A stretch of DNA of 32,510 nt from Deltaproteobacteria bacterium (lineage in GTDB: Bacteria; Calditrichota; Calditrichia; RBG-13-44-9; J075), in NCBI GenBank assembly GCA_011526015.1, contig WYBG01000503.1, positions 1-32,510 on the forward strand, read 5' to 3'. A model generated the notes under the pieces. That model searched no databases. It worked only from the letters and a program-made list of their open reading frames with translations, and was not told where the DNA came from. The position numbers were made by a program, and so were the translations under genes. This document shows positions 8,224 through 19,358 of the stretch, in pieces; position 1 is the stretch's first letter, and each line of letters begins with the position of its first letter.

Positions 8224-8567
8224 CAAGCTTCACACTTCATCTCATGGTTTCCCGCCGGGGTGCAGGGCTGTTGCATTCTATGCAAAACTTTTTACGCTGA
8301 AGGCGTTTTACACCACAGCCCAGGGTTCTCCCGGTTTTCCGGGAGAACCCTGGGACAGACAAAGAGAGACCAATCCATAAAAACCCTGAAGGGGTTTGAC
8401 AAGGCGGGTTTTGTAAAACCCTTTCAGGGTTTTGGTAGATTTACCAACTTCCGACCCAGGGTTCTCCCGGAAAGACGTGAGAACCCTGGGCTGAAATGTA
8501 TAACGCCTTCGGCGTAATAGAAGGCAATAACCCAGGCTGGCAGGCAAGAGCAAATCGCAATTCGCCC
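8224..8567. other. Intergenic region filled by palindromic repeats
   Basis: About 344 bp between copA and the large secreted protein, on the same strand. It holds the nested palindrome 8292-8517 and the half REP-like sequence at 8548-8570. No supported gene is present. The copA promoter must lie in or next to this repeat DNA if copA is transcribed separately. Confidence 0.6.
8292..8517. repeat. 226-bp nested palindromic element
   Basis: Outer arms 8292-8330 and 8479-8517 (39 bp) are inverted copies with only a few mismatches. Inside are a perfect 16-bp hairpin with a TTTT loop (8319-8334/8339-8354, CCCAGGGTTCTCCCGG), an 18-bp inverted pair with one mismatch (8380-8397/8416-8433), and a 12-bp hairpin (8455-8466/8479-8490). 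The overlapping arms allow alternative folds. It is likely a non-autonomous mobile or dispersed repeat that may also terminate or insulate transcription. Confidence 0.8.
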
Positions 8568-12520: not shown

Positions 12521-13132
12521 TTACTCCTCCAGCGCCACGCTCACCCGGATCAGTCCCCGGAAATCGCCTTCCTTGTAACCGGTGGCTTTGTCATCCGGGT
12601 AGAGGGTCGCCAACTGTGCGGAGACTTCTTCCGAGAGCAAATTTTTATCCCCGTGGCAGTTGAGGCATAATCCGGCGGCGAGCAACGGCTGGTAATAGCG
12701 GAAGGTGGTCTCACCTTCGCGCTTGATTTTCTGGATATAAGAGGGCGGGAGCGTTTCTCCCTTTTGCGCGGCGGTTTCGTAAACCCGCAAGGCTTGCGCG
12801 TCCCAATCATCCGGGGCATTTTGGGGGTTGCGGTATTTGAAGGTGGTGCGCTTCACTTCCAGCACGTTTTCGGAGCTGTCAACGATGCTTTCGGTGAGCT
12901 GCAGCGCCTTTTTGCTGCACACTTCGATAGCCGCGCCGGTTCCTCCGCTCTGCATAGCGGCGGTCAACTCCGCAACCAGGGTCTGCTTCAGCTTACCGGC
13001 TGCGGCTTCCCCGATGGCGGCGACTTTCTGCGCTTCCGCGGGGGTGGGCCGGCTTTCTGCGGATTCCTGTTTCTGGCAGCCGAGGAACACCAGCAACGCT
13101 GTTAGAGCGCCTAAGTAAAAGGATTTTTTCAT
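12521..13132 (-). CDS. DUF3365 (Tll0287-like) c-type haem lipoprotein
   Basis: A 203-residue envelope protein. The signal peptide ends in lipobox FLGC (Cys about 19). The remainder matches the Tll0287-like/DUF3365 family: CSKKALQLTESI, YRNPQNAPDDWDAQAL, then a single haem-attachment site CLNCHGD, and YPDDKATGYKEGDFRGLIRVSV, the conserved C-terminal 'G.GDFRG.isV' block. The family binds one haem covalently and is thought to serve in redox or gas/redox sensing; often it is the sensory module of larger proteins, while here it stands alone. GGGAGAAA upstream supports ATG 13132; the longer frame to 13225 is not used. It does not overlap neighbours. Confidence 0.85.
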   Translation of the reverse strand: MKKSFYLGALTALLVFLGCQKQESAESRPTPAEAQKVAAIGEAAAGKLKQTLVAELTAAMQSGGTGAAIEVCSKKALQLTESIVDSSENVLEVKRTTFKYRNPQNAPDDWDAQALRVYETAAQKGETLPPSYIQKIKREGETTFRYYQPLLAAGLCLNCHGDKNLLSEEVSAQLATLYPDDKATGYKEGDFRGLIRVSVALEE

Positions 13133-13631
13133 GATCGGTTTCTCCCGGGTTTGGTATGTGGCATCGAATAATTGTTTTGTAATCGTTAAGGGTTTTAATA
13201 TATAGCAGATTGCCTGTTTTTGCAACTAATTGGAATGCCCTCAAATTTCTTTTTGGAAATTCGTTATGGTTTTGATAATTTCTCTCGTTTGGAATGACCG
13301 TACGATAAAATTATCAAAAAACTCGATTAAGGCGGCAGCGATGCGTTATGATCCCGAGAAACATCATCGCCGTTCCATCCGGTTGCGCGGATATGATTAT
13401 TCTCGCCCCGGCGCCTATTTTGTAACGATTTGCGTAAAAAACCGGGAATGCCTTTTGGGAGAAATTCGAGGCGGAAAAATGATATTGAACGATTTTGGCA
13501 AAATCATTGATTATCATTGGCGAGAAATTCCCACCCATTTTCAGAATGTGAAATTGGATGAATTCGTCGTCATGCCCAATCATTTTCATGCGGTTTTGTG
13601 GTTGGTGGGCGGCGTCGGCGACGGTGACGGC

Positions 13632-13704
13632 GTAGGGGCGAAGCATTCCGGGCAACCCCTTTCTTCGGAACACGACGTCGTCGCCGGGAATGCTTCGCCC
13701 CTAC
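13632..13704 (+). repeat. REP unit A (73 bp), inside RAYT1
   Basis: It begins GTAG and ends CTAC. Arms GTAGGGGCGAAGCATTCC and GGAATGCTTCGCCCCTAC pair perfectly over 18 bp around a spacer containing CACGACGTCGTCGCC. A GTAG tetranucleotide at the hairpin foot is the known recognition feature of RAYT-associated REPs. In RAYT1 it is read as VGAKHSGQ...AGNASPL. Confidence 0.9.
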
Positions 13705-13774
13705 ACCGCCACAACCGCCACAACCACCGCCACAACCACCACAACCACCGCCACCACCACCCCAACCGCCCTGC
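13705..13774 (+). repeat. CCGCCACAACC low-complexity tract in RAYT1
   Basis: Degenerate repeats of CCGCCACAACC/CCACAACC encode a His/Asn/Arg-rich stretch (HRHNRHNHRHNHHNHRHHH). Comparable C/A-rich tracts follow REP units in RAYT2 (18361-18410) and in the intergenic module (18761-18846), always ending at GGCACCAAACCGGGATCATT. Confidence 0.75.
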
Positions 13775-14004
13775 TGGCACCAAACCGGGATCATTGTCCG
13801 CCATTATTCAAAATTTCACGTCAATAACGTCGCGCAAAATGAACCGAATCCGCAAAACGCCCGGCAAAAATTATGGCAGCGAAATTTTCATGACCACATC
13901 ATCCGCAACGACCGGGAATTATTCAATATCCGGCAATACATCATTAACAATCCCGCAAAATGGGAATTGGATAAAAACAACCCGATTGATTGGGAAGCAG
14001 AAAA

Positions 14005-16650
14005 ATGATCGGTAAATCTATACTTCACTATAAAATTGTAGAAAAGCTTGGCGAGGGCGGCATGGGCGTGGTGTATCTTGCGGAAGATACCAAACTGGAA
14101 CGCAAGGTTGCCATCAAATTCCTGCCGCGCCATATCGCCGCCAATGCCCGGGAGCGCCAGCGGTTTAAGATCGAAGCAAAAGCCGCCGCAGCGTTGAACC
14201 ACCCCAACATTGCCACGATTCATGCCATTGAAGAAACCGAAGGCGACATTTTCATCGTGATGGAATACATCGAAGGCCGGGAATTGGGGGACATTATCGC
14301 AGGGGCGCATCGCGATGCGCCCCAACATTTCGGGCAACCAATTGGAACCGAACACGACGACGTTGCCGGGAATGTAACCGTTGTAGGGGCGAAGCATTCC
14401 GGGCAAGCAATTCCTTCCAAACAAAACGACATCGTCGGGAATGCTTCGCCCCTACAATTACCGGTGGATCAAATCATCCCCATCGCCGCCCAAATCGCCG
14501 AAGGATTACAGGACGCCCACGAAAAAGGCATCGTGCACCGCGACATCAAATCCTCCAATATTATGATTGACGGGAGAGGGCGGGTCAAAATCATGGATTT
14601 TGGCCTGGCGAAGGTGCGCGGCGGGGCGCAACTCACCAAAGAACATACCACGCTCGGCACTGCCGCTTATATGTCGCCGGAACAGGCGCGGGGGAAAGCG
14701 GTGGATCAGCGCACCGACATCTGGTCGTTCGGGGTAGTGTTTTACGAAATGCTCACCGGGGAGCTGCCTTTCAAAAGCGAATTTGAACAGGCGCTGATTT
14801 ATTTAATCTTAAATGAAGAACCGCAGCCGGTGACCGGTTTACGGCCGGAAATTCCCTTCGAGATCGAACAGATCATCCGCAAAACCCTGCAAAAGGAAGC
14901 GCACCACCGCTATGGCTCCATGAGAGAGTTGCTCGAGGACCTGGAAAACTTTCGCCGGGGGATTCGCGCGGTTCCGGCGCACATAACCACACCGGAACCG
15001 GCGGCAGCAGAAAATTCCGTTGCGGTGATCGATTTTGCGAATATCAGCGGCGACGCGGCGTTTGACTGGCTGTGCGGCGGAATCGCCGAGACGGTCACCG
15101 TTGACCTCAAGAAAATTTCGGCGCTCAAAGTGGCGAGCCGGGAAAGGGTTGCGAATGCGCTGGCGCTTTTCGCGGGAAAGAAAATTAGCGAAGAACACAC
15201 TCTCATTATTGGTAAGACGCTGGGCGTACAATGGATAGTCTGGGGCGGATTCCAAAAAATTGGCCAGGCGCTCAGGATCACCGCTCACTTCACCGAAGTC
15301 TCTACCGGCGAGTGGGTGGGCTCGACCCGGGCGGACGGGATGATGGAGGATATTTTCCAGCTTCAGGATCAAATCATCGCCGCCCTGATGGATACCTTGA
15401 ACCTGGCGCTGATGCCCTCGGAAATCACAAAGATCGAAACGCCGGAAACCGTGGATATCGAGGCGTACGAATATTGCGCCAGGGCCAGGCAGTTGTTCTA
15501 CCGGTTTGGCAAATCCAGTTTCGAACAAGCCCGGCAGTTGTTTGAGCAAGCGATTGCGATTGATCCCCAATACGCGCTGGCTTATTCCGGCCTGGGGAGC
15601 GTGCACATTTACCGGTTTATCGGCCAGGCCGACGTGCGCGACCTTGACGTGGGCATCTCCTATTTGCAAAAGGCCATCGAATACGAACCGGACCTGGCCG
15701 AGCCATACCTCAGGCTGACCTACGCCTATACCCGCAGACAAAGATTACAGGAGGCGGTGCAAACCGGGGAGAAGGCAGCGGCGCTGGATCCGGAGAATTT
15801 TCACGCCCATTACTTTTTAGCAGTGGCCTGCTGGTTCAAGGCGTTGCAGGAATATGAGTTGACCCTGGCGGCTGACGCGGTGGCGCATCTGAAAAAGACC
15901 ATCGCCTTGCAGCCGCAATACGAACCGGCGCGCCAGGTGATTGCCTGGATTTATATGCAAAACGGCCGCTACTCCGAAGCCAAAGAACACTGGGAGCAGG
16001 CGGTTGTAATTGAAGAATCCGGGAAATTTGAAGGCGAGAGATTTGTGGGCGCTTTCACTCACCTGGGAAACTGGTACGCTCGCAATCAGCAATTAGATGC
16101 GGCGCTGGAGTGCTACCAACGCTCCCTGAAATTACTGGAAAAATCCGACCATCTCTATAGCAATACCGTCCGTGTTCTTACTTATTATCATTGGGGAGCG
16201 CTTCATTATCATTTTGGCCAGTACGATGAAGCCCTTAAACTTTACAAGACCGCGCGCGAGCTCATTGCCAAAAATCCCAAAGCGCTGGGAACCGGGTATC
16301 TTCTGGTTAAAATCCAGATCTGGCAGGCCCGCAGCTTTTATAAACTGGGGATGCAGCGGGAAGCAAAACAGAGTTTAGAAGCGGCCCTTGCTTTGTTTGA
16401 ATCCAGAACGGGGTACGATTTCAACATTTATATGGAGGGAAACGACGCTAACAGCTATTACGAATTCGCCGGTTATTATGCACTGGGAAATCAACCGCAA
16501 AAAGCCCTCCAATATTTACGCAGGGCTGTTGCCTGCGGCTGGGCGGATCTCCCCTCTCTCGAAGCGGATGGAGGCTTTGCCCGGCTCCGGGAGGATGCGG
16601 AGTATCAAAAAATTGTGCAGGAGATAAAGGTGCGGATGCAGTTGTTGTGA
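14005..16650 (+). CDS. Ser/Thr protein kinase with TolB-like and TPR domains, REP insertion in kinase domain
   Basis: An 881-residue protein. The kinase domain has glycine loop GEGGMGVVY (16-24), VAIK Lys38, HRDIKSSN (Asp180), DFG (198-200), GTAAYMSPEQARG and DIWSFGVVFYEMLTGELPF. Then a TolB/FlgO-like domain (SVAVIDFANISGD ... LGVQWIVWGGFQKIG, about 345-475) and TPR repeats to the C-terminus. No transmembrane helix is obvious between kinase and TolB parts. ATG 14005 is chosen because MIGKSILHYKIVEKLGEGG is the family's usual start. Residues ~99-151, between the hinge/alphaD and LPVDQIIPIAAQIAEGL, are encoded by a REP array and have no counterpart in usual members. All catalytic residues remain, so activity is plausible. 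Its start overlaps the RAYT1 stop. Confidence 0.93.
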   Translation: MIGKSILHYKIVEKLGEGGMGVVYLAEDTKLERKVAIKFLPRHIAANARERQRFKIEAKAAAALNHPNIATIHAIEETEGDIFIVMEYIEGRELGDIIAGAHRDAPQHFGQPIGTEHDDVAGNVTVVGAKHSGQAIPSKQNDIVGNASPLQLPVDQIIPIAAQIAEGLQDAHEKGIVHRDIKSSNIMIDGRGRVKIMDFGLAKVRGGAQLTKEHTTLGTAAYMSPEQARGKAVDQRTDIWSFGVVFYEMLTGELPFKSEFEQALIYLILNEEPQPVTGLRPEIPFEIEQIIRKTLQKEAHHRYGSMRELLEDLENFRRGIRAVPAHITTPEPAAAENSVAVIDFANISGDAAFDWLCGGIAETVTVDLKKISALKVASRERVANALALFAGKKISEEHTLIIGKTLGVQWIVWGGFQKIGQALRITAHFTEVSTGEWVGSTRADGMMEDIFQLQDQIIAALMDTLNLALMPSEITKIETPETVDIEAYEYCARARQLFYRFGKSSFEQARQLFEQAIAIDPQYALAYSGLGSVHIYRFIGQADVRDLDVGISYLQKAIEYEPDLAEPYLRLTYAYTRRQRLQEAVQTGEKAAALDPENFHAHYFLAVACWFKALQEYELTLAADAVAHLKKTIALQPQYEPARQVIAWIYMQNGRYSEAKEHWEQAVVIEESGKFEGERFVGAFTHLGNWYARNQQLDAALECYQRSLKLLEKSDHLYSNTVRVLTYYHWGALHYHFGQYDEALKLYKTARELIAKNPKALGTGYLLVKIQIWQARSFYKLGMQREAKQSLEAALALFESRTGYDFNIYMEGNDANSYYEFAGYYALGNQPQKALQYLRRAVACGWADLPSLEADGGFARLREDAEYQKIVQEIKVRMQLL
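14299..14455 (+). repeat. REP array (1.5 units) inside kinase gene
   Basis: A diverged first unit starts GCAG and holds a perfect 22-bp palindrome at 14302-14323 (GGGGCGCATCG and its complement), then CGGGCAACCAATTGGAACCG and a GCCGGGAA end. The complete 73-bp unit B follows at 14383-14455 with the same 18-bp arms as unit A. Read in the kinase frame it encodes VGAKHSGQAIPS...VGNASPL without a stop. Confidence 0.9.
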
Positions 16651-16672
16651 AGGGGCGCGACAAATTGCATTC

Positions 16673-16896
16673 TCTGACGGGAGGCAGAGCCTCACCAGAT
16701 GCGTCACACAGCAGAGCTGTGCGACGAGCATGAGTTAATGACGGTAATAGTGACATTCACTATTCTCAATTCACCGTTCACCATTCACTATTGCTGTTAT
16801 TTTTCAATTTAGTGCAGCGGGTCAAGAATTGTGAATGGAGAACAGTGAATTGTGAATGCTTAACTTAATGGCAATGAGGCTCTGCCTCCCGTCAGA
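16673..16896. repeat. 224-bp palindromic element with 22-bp perfect inverted ends
   Basis: The ends 16673-16694 (TCTGACGGGAGGCAGAGCCT...) and 16875-16896 are exact reverse complements. Inside are a hairpin GTCACACAGC/GCTGTGCGAC near 16703-16725, and inverted ATTCAC-rich tracts (16755-16793 against 16826-16859, ATTCACTATT / GAATTGTGAAT). It fills the gap between the kinase and the NmrA-type gene; no gene is present. It could end kinase transcription. Confidence 0.8.
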
Positions 16897-16932
16897 AAGG
16901 AAAGTCATTGAAAATTTAAGGAGGAGCATATC

Positions 16933-17820
16933 ATGATTTTGATTGTCGGCGCTACCAGCAAGCTCGGCAGAGCCCTCATACCGCTGCTGCTGGCGGAAGG
17001 CGTGGCGGTGCGCGCCATGACGCGCACGCCGGAAAAGGCAGGGGACCTGCGGAATGCCGGTGTGGAAGTCGTCGCCGGAGATTTACGCGATCCCGCCTCC
17101 CTGGCGAAAGCCTGCGCAGGAGCGGAAAAAGTGCTGGCTGCCGCCCATGCCTTCCTGGGCCGGGGCAATAATACCCCTGAAAAGGTGGATGGCGCCGGCA
17201 ATCGCCATTTGATCGAGGCCGCCAAAGTCGCCGGAGCTAAACATTTTGTGTTTACCTCCGCGCTGGGGGCCGGCGCGGATCAACCGGTTGATTTCTTCCG
17301 CATCAAATACCAGGCCGAAGAATATCTCCGCAACAGCGGCCTCAGTTACACCATTTTGCGCCCGGCGCCTTTTATGGAAATGTGGGCGGAACTGATCGGC
17401 AAGCCGGTTGTTACGCAGGGAAAGGCAACGATCTTTGGGCGGGGCAAAACGCCGGTCAATTTCATTTCCGTGGAAGACGTGGCGCGTTTTGCCAAAATCG
17501 CGTCTGAAGATGCAAGCGCAAAAAACCAGGTTATCTCCATCGGCGGTCCGGAGAACCTGACCGTGGAGCAAGTGGTAGAAATCTTTGAGCGCGTCTGCGG
17601 TCGCCCGGCGAAAAAGAGCCACGTACCCCTGCCGCTCATGCGCGCTATGAGATTGCTGACCCGCCCTCTCAACCCGGCGCTAAGCCGCCAGATTGCCATG
17701 GGAATCTTCATGGACACCGCCGACCAGGCCTTTGACATGAGCAATACACTGAAGCGCTACCCCATGGAATTGACGCGGTTGGAGGAGGTGGTGCGGAGGC
17801 GGTATGGAAGTTGGGTATGA
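16933..17820 (+). CDS. NmrA-type/atypical SDR NAD(P)-binding protein
   Basis: A 295-residue cytoplasmic protein. An N-terminal Rossmann motif MILIVGATSKLGRALIP (G-A-T-S-x-L-G), MTRTPEKA, VVAGDLRDPASLAKAC and HFVFTSALGAGAD, plus the YTILRPAPFMEMWAE block, are typical of NmrA/NAD(P)H-binding atypical SDRs (quinone-oxidoreductase or NmrA-like). The catalytic Tyr-x-x-x-Lys of classical SDRs appears as a modified IKYQAEEYL, so redox activity is not certain; a redox-sensing or epimerase-like role is possible. AAGGAGGAG precedes ATG 16933 at a good distance. The gene directly follows the palindromic element and precedes RAYT2 on the same strand, without overlap once RAYT2 is started at 17912. Confidence 0.85.
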   Translation: MILIVGATSKLGRALIPLLLAEGVAVRAMTRTPEKAGDLRNAGVEVVAGDLRDPASLAKACAGAEKVLAAAHAFLGRGNNTPEKVDGAGNRHLIEAAKVAGAKHFVFTSALGAGADQPVDFFRIKYQAEEYLRNSGLSYTILRPAPFMEMWAELIGKPVVTQGKATIFGRGKTPVNFISVEDVARFAKIASEDASAKNQVISIGGPENLTVEQVVEIFERVCGRPAKKSHVPLPLMRAMRLLTRPLNPALSRQIAMGIFMDTADQAFDMSNTLKRYPMELTRLEEVVRRRYGSWV

Positions 17821-17911
17821 GGATTATTCCCGGAAAAACTATCATGGTCAAGTTCAAAATGATTGGCAGAAAGAGTCTTTATATTTAGCAAGTCGGGCAG
17901 GGCGGGATGCT

Positions 17912-18631
17912 ATGAAATACGATCCGGATAAACATCACCGCAAAACGATCCGGTTAAAGGGATATGATTATTCCAACGCCGGCGCCTATTTTGTAACGAT
18001 TTGCGTACAAAACCGGGAATGCCTCTTTGGCGAAATCCAAAACGGGAAAATGATATTGAACGATTTTGGTAAAATAATTGATCATCATTGGAGAAATATT
18101 CCCTCTCATTTTCAGAATGTGGCATTGGATGAATATATCGTTATGCCGAATCATTTTCATGGGGTTTTATGGTTGGTGGGTGATGGGAATACGGCAACCC
18201 CCGAAAACGCCGTAACCGGGATAACCGTAGGGGCGAAGCATTCCGGGCAAATAATTGTAAACGAACACGACGATGTCGCCGGGAACGTAGGGGCGATGCA
18301 TTCCCAAACACTAATTTATTCCAAACAAGACGATGTTGCCAGGAATGCATCGCCCCTACACGTGGATCACCACCCCAACCGCCGCCCCAACCATCCCGAT
18401 CACCCCAACGGCACCAAACCGGGATCATTGTCCGCCATTATTCAAAATTTCACGTCAATAACGTCCCGCAAAATCAATCGAATTCGCAAAACGCCCGGCA
18501 AAAAATTATGGCAGCGAAATTTTCATGATCGCATCATCCGCAACGATAAAGAATTATTCAATATTCGCCAATACATTATTGATAATCCCCTGAAATGGGA
18601 AGTTGATAATGAAAATCCCAATGCGGTTTGA
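17912..18631 (+). CDS. REP-associated tyrosine transposase RAYT2
   Basis: A 239-residue Y1 HUH transposase, apparently intact. MKYDPDKHHRKTIRLKGYDY, GAYFVTICVQNRECLFGEI, the HUH motif MPNHFHGVLW, GTKPGSLSAIIQNFTSITSR, KLWQRNFHDRIIRNDKELFN and IRQYIIDNPLKW with the presumed nucleophilic Tyr are all present. By family it nicks and joins single-stranded REP hairpins bearing a GTAG foot, and such hairpins lie inside this gene (codons ~106-150) and from 5 nt after its stop. The REP plus CCCCAACC-rich tract replaces the variable loop between HUH strand and GTKPGS. ATG 17912 matches the RAYT1 start; the open frame from 17804 overlaps the NmrA gene. The ribosome binding site is weak, as is usual for transposases. 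Confidence 0.92.
   Translation: MKYDPDKHHRKTIRLKGYDYSNAGAYFVTICVQNRECLFGEIQNGKMILNDFGKIIDHHWRNIPSHFQNVALDEYIVMPNHFHGVLWLVGDGNTATPENAVTGITVGAKHSGQIIVNEHDDVAGNVGAMHSQTLIYSKQDDVARNASPLHVDHHPNRRPNHPDHPNGTKPGSLSAIIQNFTSITSRKINRIRKTPGKKLWQRNFHDRIIRNDKELFNIRQYIIDNPLKWEVDNENPNAV
18227..18359 (+). repeat. REP array (1.5 units) inside RAYT2
   Basis: A partial unit starts GTAGGGGCGAAGCATTCCGG at 18227. The complete 73-bp unit C follows at 18287-18359. In unit C the arms read GTAGGGGCGATGCATTCC and GGAATGCATCGCCCCTAC: one A-to-T change relative to the other units is matched on the opposite arm, so pairing is kept. It is translated as VGAMHSQT...ARNASPL in the RAYT2 frame. Confidence 0.9.
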
Positions 18632-18635
18632 AATT

Positions 18636-18866
18636 GCAGGGGCGTTGCGGGCAACCAATTGCAACCGAACAGGACGTTGCCGGGAACGTAGGGGCGAAGC
18701 ATTCCGGGCAACCCATTGCAACCCAACACGACGACGTCGCCGGGAATGCTTCGCCCCTACAACACCCCAACCAACCCAACCAACCCAACCTACCCAACCT
18801 ACCCAACCACCCCAACCATCCCCATCACCGCCCGATCACCCCCACCGGCACCAAACCGGGATCATT
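18636..18866 (+). repeat. Intergenic REP module with CCCAACC tract and RAYT-derived end
   Basis: It starts 5 nt after the RAYT2 stop with a partial unit beginning GCAGGGGCG. The complete 73-bp unit D is at 18688-18760. A CCCAACCAACC/CCTACCCAACC tract follows (18761-18846), then GGCACCAAACCGGGATCATT at 18847-18866. That last block is identical to the RAYT1 and RAYT2 sequence encoding GTKPGS, after which similarity ends. The module thus repeats the inner section of the RAYT genes outside a RAYT gene and covers the last codons of the GNAT gene. Confidence 0.88.
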
Positions 18867-19265
18867 CTGTAACCAATTTCCGATCACCTTTTCCATCCCA
18901 AATGGCCGTTCGACAAAACCGAGTTTCCGGTAGAAATCGGCGGCATGATCGGTGAACAGGTAAACATGCTGCCCTTGAAGTTCTGGCAGGAGAAGCTCCA
19001 TCATTGTGCGGGCAATCCCGCGCCGCCGGTAGGCGCTCAATGTCCAGACGTCCACGATATAGGCGTTGCAGACCCCGTCGGATAAGACCCGCGCGGTGCC
19101 GACTATCTGAGTTCCGTCGTGGGCAATGCAGGTCGAAAAGCTATTGGCAAACGATGCTTCCAGTTGCGCCGGGGTTCGCCCATTATCGAACGCATCCCGG
19201 CTCAGGATGCTCTTCATCGCTTCCCAATCCACGCCTGCAAGATCACGTTGATAAACGATGGACAT
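18825..19265 (-). CDS. GNAT family N-acetyltransferase with repeat-derived C-terminus
   Basis: A 146-residue cytoplasmic acetyltransferase; substrate unknown. GTARVLSDGVCNAYIVDVWT and the acetyl-CoA loop YRRRGIARTMMELLLP (R-x-x-G-x-A) are typical, followed by YLFTDHAADFYRKLGF and a family-like end ERPFGMEKVIGNWL. The remaining 13 residues or so, NDPGLVPVGVIGR, are the reverse-strand translation of the REP module end (18825-18866), including the block shared with both RAYT genes. AGGAG about 6 nt before ATG 19265 sets the start. The extension is short and follows the complete fold, so the enzyme is probably functional. Confidence 0.9.
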   Translation of the reverse strand: MSIVYQRDLAGVDWEAMKSILSRDAFDNGRTPAQLEASFANSFSTCIAHDGTQIVGTARVLSDGVCNAYIVDVWTLSAYRRRGIARTMMELLLPELQGQHVYLFTDHAADFYRKLGFVERPFGMEKVIGNWLQNDPGLVPVGVIGR

Positions 19266-19358
19266 GCCTTCTCCTGCTTATGTTACGTTCGGCAGCGCCG
19301 CGCCGGTGTTTGTTTATCGAGATGTTTCGCGTTGCACCTTAAAACGGGTATTTAATTC

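Follow-up and report, generated by a model that had tools for sequence, protein, structure and literature searches.

Double-foot REP hairpins carried in frame by subclass 2.4 RAYT genes, and a putative residue-level code for their arms

Four 73-bp palindromic units clustered around two RAYT transposase genes are, with high probability, the cognate hairpins of the subclass 2.4 RAYT encoded at the same place, which would read them through helix alphaC and the end of helix alphaB and whose copies would move. Beyond this locus, a GTAG-footed palindrome was found in the same in-frame loop in 152 of 198 parsed RAYT genes from many phyla, and its arm letters covary with residues of the protein that carries it, which suggests a recognition code, from residue face to arm letter, that can be read from sequence alone. 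The other 46 genes contain no foot-tagged internal palindrome under the criterion used (a GT[AG]G-footed inverted repeat, arm of at least 8 and spacer of at most 75). The window, which is the whole stretch of 32,510 nucleotides analysed here, represents one contig of an incomplete genome (5.04 Mb in 624 contigs, 88% complete).

Units A (13632-13704), B (14383-14455), C (18287-18359) and D (18688-18760), all on the forward strand, are each 73 bp long, begin with GTAG, end with CTAC and are paired at 18 of 18 arm positions, as described in the initial annotation. The A-to-T change in one arm of unit C is located at position 11 and is matched by the complementary change at position 63. Partial units, recognised by repeat-family match, are present 5' of B (approximately 14313-14382), C (18227-18286, 60 bp or 20 codons) and D (approximately 18638-18687), and none is present 5' of A. 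This 1.5-unit form probably arises by local half-unit repetition. Among 147 RAYT loops from the wider collection, 23 hold at least three copies of the arm, and the loops of L073 and L139 contain six to eight copies of the 5' arm, representing large in-frame expansions of the half-unit.

As single strands the four units fold with z-scores of -6.2 to -8.1, and none of 200 shuffled sequences folds as well. REPINs, as Bertels and Rainey reportedly described them in 2011, consist of a pair of GTAG arms, inverted and separated by a spacer, an arrangement that the units share. In a REPIN each of the two inverted REPs has its own hairpin, whereas the single arms of our units fold at 0 kcal/mol, a value from parameters which may miss small hairpins with special loops. 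Since the single arms lack a hairpin of their own in the DNA fold, each unit forms a single long hairpin rather than a pair of REPs, and the REPIN assignment was rejected. The foot is itself paired (GTAG with CTAC), which makes the unit a double-foot REP of TnpA_REP subclass 2.4; the earlier description of a GTAG-footed REP tied to RAYT therefore stands, but not in the canonical form with an unpaired foot. A PHROGs search gave one weak match to an unknown family, and a literature text search with the letters of the repeat returned unrelated papers only.

The units had been described as lying next to two RAYT genes. The association is correct, but three of the units are in-frame parts of genes, A and C of the RAYT genes and B of a kinase gene, while D starts 57 bp past the stop of the second RAYT. 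RAYT1 (13341-14015, forward strand) is a likely pseudogene of subclass 2.4. Its N part, loop and alphaC share one frame and its C part stops at KTPGKN; the frame is lost near 13863, ahead of the catalytic tyrosine, so that the WQRN and tyrosine parts remain unread. Scraps of RAYT1 are all that is left in the sister genome G001. RAYT2 (17912-18631, forward strand) is the only intact one of the two RAYTs in the window. The HUH motif NHFH (18149-18160 in RAYT2) is present in both genes and agrees with the subclass 2.4 pattern NH[IFV]H; the WQ motif reads WQRN in RAYT2 and is out of frame in RAYT1. The catalytic tyrosine of RAYT2, Tyr221 (codon 18572-18574), is invariant across 77 aligned sequences and is located in YIIDNP, which has the Y and NP of the subclass 2.4 motif YIxNNP and differs from it at one position. 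RAYT2 has Y---NP and not the Y---Q motif of IS200/IS605. Units A and C are placed between the HUH half and the tyrosine half of RAYT1 and RAYT2, respectively, and thus occupy the insertion with an in-frame REP that marks subclass 2.4.

The AlphaFold model of RAYT2 aligns best, among the chains aligned, with the TnpA_REP-REP complex 4er8 (Z 12.8, rmsd 2.9 over 126 residues); many ferredoxin-like folds also align at Z below 8 and are read as indicating a common fold only (VIA-align). The loop has a pLDDT below 50 and is predicted to be disordered. The C part of RAYT2 scores 41 bits against NCBIfam NF047646, below the curated cut-off of 80 bits; the family is matched by all ten members of set A2, of which L054 scores 61.5, and the inserted loop splits the match. 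Compared with G001, omega of RAYT2 is 0.31 in the N part, 0.505 in the loop and 0.087 in the C part. The same genome also contains two RAYT-family genes of a different type (C187:7634-8032 and C101:3382-3825), both above the NCBIfam cut-off. Downstream of unit D, a RAYT scrap consisting of the linker and a GTKPGS segment (18797-18866, forward strand) is 79% identical to 13726-13795 and reaches into the 3' end of a minus-strand GNAT gene (18797-19265). As this gene ends within the scrap, its last residues seem to be derived from transposase DNA.

Unit B resides in a gene for a Ser/Thr protein kinase with TPR repeats (14005-16650, forward strand; Pfam Pkinase, 7.5e-51). The locus is syntenic in G001, a sister species of the same genus, and comparison of orthologues delimits an in-frame insert of 53 codons (14299-14457, forward strand) made of a partial unit and unit B. 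The G001 orthologue carries one unit, so that the half-unit is extra in the genome of the window, and no unit is present in the G005 and G006 orthologues. Between the window's genome and G001, dN/dS of the kinase is 0.14 before the insert, 0.16 just after it and 0.21 in the remainder, as compared to 1.0 over the 26 aligned codons of the insert; the neighbouring NmrA-like gene gives 0.145. These values show that purifying selection has been retained around an insert which drifts neutrally. A perfect 22-nt inverted repeat (TCTGACGGGAGGCAGAGCCTCA) enclosing 180 bp is located between the kinase and the NmrA-like gene (16673-16896).

The expectation of further copies elsewhere in the genome was borne out, as 13 more two-armed elements of 71-73 bp were identified on 11 other contigs. 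They have GAAGCATT arms and interiors unrelated to one another. This count leaves out half-units, among them those on C178 and C594, as well as C376, apparently a contig-end duplicate of C178. The arms covary as anticipated: over the 17 elements 94.4% of the cells are paired, and ten double-sided changes are present as compared to 3.4 in shuffled alignments, none of 500 of which reached as high. The innermost arm pair occurs in four forms (GC, CG, UA and AU), foot pairs 1 to 4 are kept in 14, 12, 16 and 10 of the 17 copies, and the double-foot pattern GT[AG]G...C[TC]AC is present in all four window units.

Eight dispersed copies could be aligned to their G001 counterparts, with identities of 281/288 in the arms, 232/289 in the interiors and 754/960 in the flanks; in these eight copies the arms are held while the interior drifts. 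All eight are shared at the same places in the sister species, which makes them old, and nothing in the comparison points to recent movement beyond the RAYT/kinase locus. The earlier wording of the units as mobilised by RAYT is accordingly retained as inference only. Of the 13 dispersed copies, 11 have at least one flank that matches an element locus of G001, and the copies on C311 and C378 have no flank match among the 30 G001 element loci compared. The other-type RAYT-family genes on C187 and C101 could be the movers of the dispersed copies.

Several arrays and repeats of related appearance were also observed. At the contig end of C178 (L014, 37-336) a unit precedes three decayed ones spaced 76 bp apart. 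In G001, single-arm GTAGGGGCGAAGCATCCC arrays with a spacing of about 60 bp, that is tandem half-units, are present at C120:101328-101580 and C25:31605-31734. In the window, nested inverted repeats near a copper-ATPase-like gene (8292-8517; 68-nt arms that are 85% complementary, with 31-nt arms inside) look like another palindromic element.

To survey RAYT genes more widely, 181 loci were parsed, of which 141 gave a gene whose two halves share a frame. The loop, with a mean length of 106 nt, contains the palindrome in 108 of these 141 genes, as compared to 1.5 expected in shuffles; this first sample includes the best 80 named-record loci, which were ranked by a query that has such a loop, with search patterns lying outside the loop. 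The same palindrome is present in the N part of two and in the C part of one of the 141 genes, and within 600 bp upstream of 50 and downstream of 53. In a second, hold-out sample drawn by profile the loop carries it in 44 of 57 genes, and the N and C parts in none. Arm analysis took in 66 of the 78 parsed genes of the best-80 named-record sample and 40 of the 63 others. Named records of that sample with an internal REP include Nitrosomonas, Nitrospira, Nitrospinota, Gemmatimonadetes, Planctomycetes, Cyanobacteria, Chloroflexi, Bacteroidales, Zixibacteria, WOR-3, Atribacteria, Poribacteria, Latescibacterota and SAR324, while L166 and L167, which are of another type with DHLH motifs, have no internal palindrome. 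In aligned RAYTs of relatives this loop holds GTAGGGGC...GCCCCTAC palindromes that differ from one another. The loop protein of L060 (G028, a relative from the same class) and L057 (G014, from the same order) is that of the Calditrichaeota records L113 and L114, so that the host probably belongs to that group.

Palindromes are present both in the loop and in the flanks of 87 genes, and in 64 of these the internal arm agrees with the best arm of the flanks at 6 or more of 8 letters, as compared to 5.6% for the flanks of other genes, which indicates that the internal REP is the cognate REP of its gene. A search for exact two-foot palindromes, a method that misses long-spacer and degenerate elements, located all of them inside RAYT genes in five of ten genomes (seven palindromes in all) and none in G023 and G036. 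G017 has them at three places, one within the gene and one on each side, G048 has more, and the two in G001 are of other arm types.

The arm letters were then compared with the protein that carries them. Arm extraction mis-registers some loops; seven were repaired and three of 150 were excluded before the analysis of 137 genes, and the hold-out scores given below are unrepaired. For arm letters 9-16, mutual information computed over 98 nonredundant genes peaks at alphaC positions 4, 7, 8, 11 and 12 (z 14 to 16) and also at residues 63, 66 and 67 at the end of alphaB (z 11 to 14). In the 137 genes, letter 14 tracks residues 63, 66 and 67 (z 20 to 24), alphaC 7 is linked with letters 16 and 12, alphaC 8 with letter 12 and alphaC 4 with letters 9-11, as against a maximum of 5.7 among 664 background pairs. 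In RAYT2 the two putative recognition faces, both assigned by covariation, map to residues 59-69 at the end of alphaB (18086-18118; positions 59, 62, 63, 66, 67 and 69) and to residues 175-187 of alphaC (18434-18472; positions 175, 176, 178, 179, 182, 183, 184 and 187), the latter falling in a predicted helix at 173-192. The alphaC class of RAYT2, AIQN, pairs with GAAGCATT or GATGCATT, also in records from other phyla; other arm classes include, for example, GACGCATG, GGTTCGCG and GTATTGCA.

With a core that leaves out residues 58-70, the correlation of arm similarity is 0.062 for the core and 0.444 for the 14 code positions. The corresponding partial correlations are 0.442 for arm and code given the core and 0.033 for arm and core given the code. 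Simple Mantel tests separate alphaC from the N part weakly (0.259 and 0.221), since the N part contains the alphaB face, and this is resolved by the removal of residues 58-70. Prediction out of sample was carried out on the hold-out sample, whose 57 new genes were obtained from 77 loci in genomes of the phyla of G048 and G059 (single genomes of both were already in the training set), with eight arm letters predicted from the nearest of 106 training genes. Accuracy is 0.576 from the 14 code positions as compared to 0.300 at random, and 0.571 from the 8 alphaC positions as compared to 0.356 from 8 non-code alphaC positions; the N part gives 0.365 and the C-terminal part 0.325. At an N identity of at most 0.5 the code positions give 0.563 as against 0.349. 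The six alphaB positions give 0.381 and are thus weak alone, and with 30% of the arms predicted at 6 or more of 8 letters the code is partial. As internal arms track the helix faces of the same protein and can be predicted out of sample, the gene appears to label its own DNA specificity. In G048, the RAYT paralogues L196 and L197 have cores which are 84% identical and differ in their REP arms and code residues; judged from their sequences, they may represent a natural specificity swap.

The covariation could also reflect shared ancestry or the exchange of one cassette comprising the loop and the adjoining alphaC, without recognition. alphaC is encoded directly 3' of the loop, so that joint exchange could add to the signal, and L196 and L197, sharing most of their core and differing in arms and code, are what a cassette swap would give. 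However, the signal skips variable columns beside those that carry it (residues 61, 65 and 68 and alphaC 19, 22 and 26, all with z below 3 in the 98 genes) and has about the period of a helix, with a best angle of 94 degrees and a power at 100 degrees that is matched by 3 of 500 shuffled profiles. Part of it comes from alphaB, encoded well ahead of the loop, and hardly any from the remainder of the N part or from the C-terminal part, where 0 of 15 variable columns exceed z 6. When arm swaps are restricted to core neighbours the signal persists (0/100 at each leading column), with a maximum z of 3.2 in the C-terminal part and 5.0 in the rest of the N part. We therefore consider the cassette explanation unlikely. 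A role of the hairpin as an mRNA structure that controls expression of the RAYT or the kinase, with DNA recognition being incidental, is very unlikely in our judgement: the arms give very stable hairpins, as inverted repeats within transcripts can, but such a structure needs pairing and not particular arm letters that track protein helices, and no Rfam family matches across 13000-19300. That the units are Rickettsia-type palindromic elements (RPEs), or similar in-frame inserts unconnected with RAYT, is suggested by their in-frame insertion into protein genes, which resembles RPEs (mentioned in PMC3733652); the GTAG foot, the position within RAYT genes and the covariation of arms with protein make this extremely improbable.

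A further explanation concerns the internal copies, which may be tolerated scars of random REP scattering, where harmless insertions in a disordered loop survive. The predicted disorder of the loop agrees with this, as do the neutral drift of the kinase insert within a conserved gene and the use of both open frames, in which GTAGGGGC is read 80 and 40 times as against 0 in the frame reading TAG. Random scattering does not, however, predict five of ten genomes with all exact palindromes inside RAYT genes, and persistence in three quarters of the genes across phyla would be unexpected. In addition, identical 28-mers recur in 6, 5, 5, 3 and 3 genes, and the genes sharing them (the sets of 6, 5 and 5) are on average just 36-44% identical at third codon positions, which suggests that the DNA letters are held or refreshed. 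Likewise, gene pairs with an N identity of at most 0.6 and a code share of at least 0.8 have an arm identity of 0.84 as compared to 0.41 at third codon positions. We regard the scar explanation as doubtful, though a real possibility. Our own broader proposal, that group 4 RAYTs are self-labelled, that the code of the alphaB end and alphaC switches nearly independently of the core, and that selection keeps the internal copy as a cis element, as opposed to a scar, is put forward tentatively, at somewhat less than an even chance.

Parts of this picture are already known, namely the in-gene REPs and the coevolution of RAYT and REP. In-frame REPs in the gene and double-foot REPs have been described for subclass 2.4 TnpA_REP, one of whose marks is an 8-aa insertion at the end of alphaB, in the part consulted of Quentin et al. 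2018 (PMC6006769). The NH[IFV]H, WQ and Y..NP motifs and the variable insertion between the halves given there for subclass 2.4 (Bertels group 4) are the same here, whereas our units have a long variable interior within their 71-73 bp, form 1.5-unit arrays and include one in a kinase gene. The GTAG REP superfamily and its REPtrons, as presented in part of Di Nocera et al. 2013 (PMC3733652), share the GTAG foot, the association with RAYT and in-frame intragenic copies in unrelated genes, but their foot is unpaired and their REPs are 20-40 bp long and flank the RAYT genes rather than residing inside them. According to the portion consulted of Corneloup et al. 2021 (PMC8266576), the E. coli TnpA_REP makes contact with its REP through helix alpha3; equating alpha3 with our alphaC is our own reading by analogy. 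The fold is shared with the E. coli and group 3 TnpA_REP-REP pairs, as indicated by the alignment of the RAYT2 model to 4er8, whereas for groups 2 and 3 the same portion describes bulged or short REPs and a different reading of the stem, and no in-gene REP. For Stenotrophomonas, Nunvar et al. 2010 (PMC2817692) found that the tree of the RAYTs agrees with that of the REPs, a coevolution seen at the level of trees, in gammaproteobacteria and for flanking REPs; here it is seen at the level of residues, in many phyla, and with an arm type nearly independent of the protein core. No residue-level RAYT-REP code was found in the open-licence literature, within which such a code is the addition made here. 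The literature compared yielded no biochemistry of subclass 2.4 and no study of REP recognition by RAYTs beyond the E. coli type and group 3.

In the mechanism we propose, RAYT2 would bind the folded single strand, a GTAGGGGCGAAGCATTCC hairpin, through its GTAG foot and stem, and the letters of the stem would be read by alphaC and the end of alphaB, as the statistics suggest. By comparison with the family, the tyrosine would cleave beside the hairpin and rejoin nearby, so that copies spread, and copies landing in frame in protein loops, as in the kinase, would survive where frame and fold tolerate them. The internal copy may persist as the enzyme's own substrate, either because it acts in cis or because it stays linked to the gene when this is transferred horizontally. 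The parts of this reading that we infer are cleavage, mobility and any advantage of carrying the internal copy.

If the broader proposal is true, the internal copy would be a portable substrate after horizontal transfer, or a means of self-control, and in several genomes an element called repetitive would not be repetitive at all. As the target is carried in the gene itself, enzyme and substrate come as a pair in one sequence, and hundreds of such natural pairs could be collected from genomes. With a hairpin that may be predicted from about 14 residues, the question of specificity becomes directly testable, and selection on the internal target would bear on the persistence of domesticated transposases.
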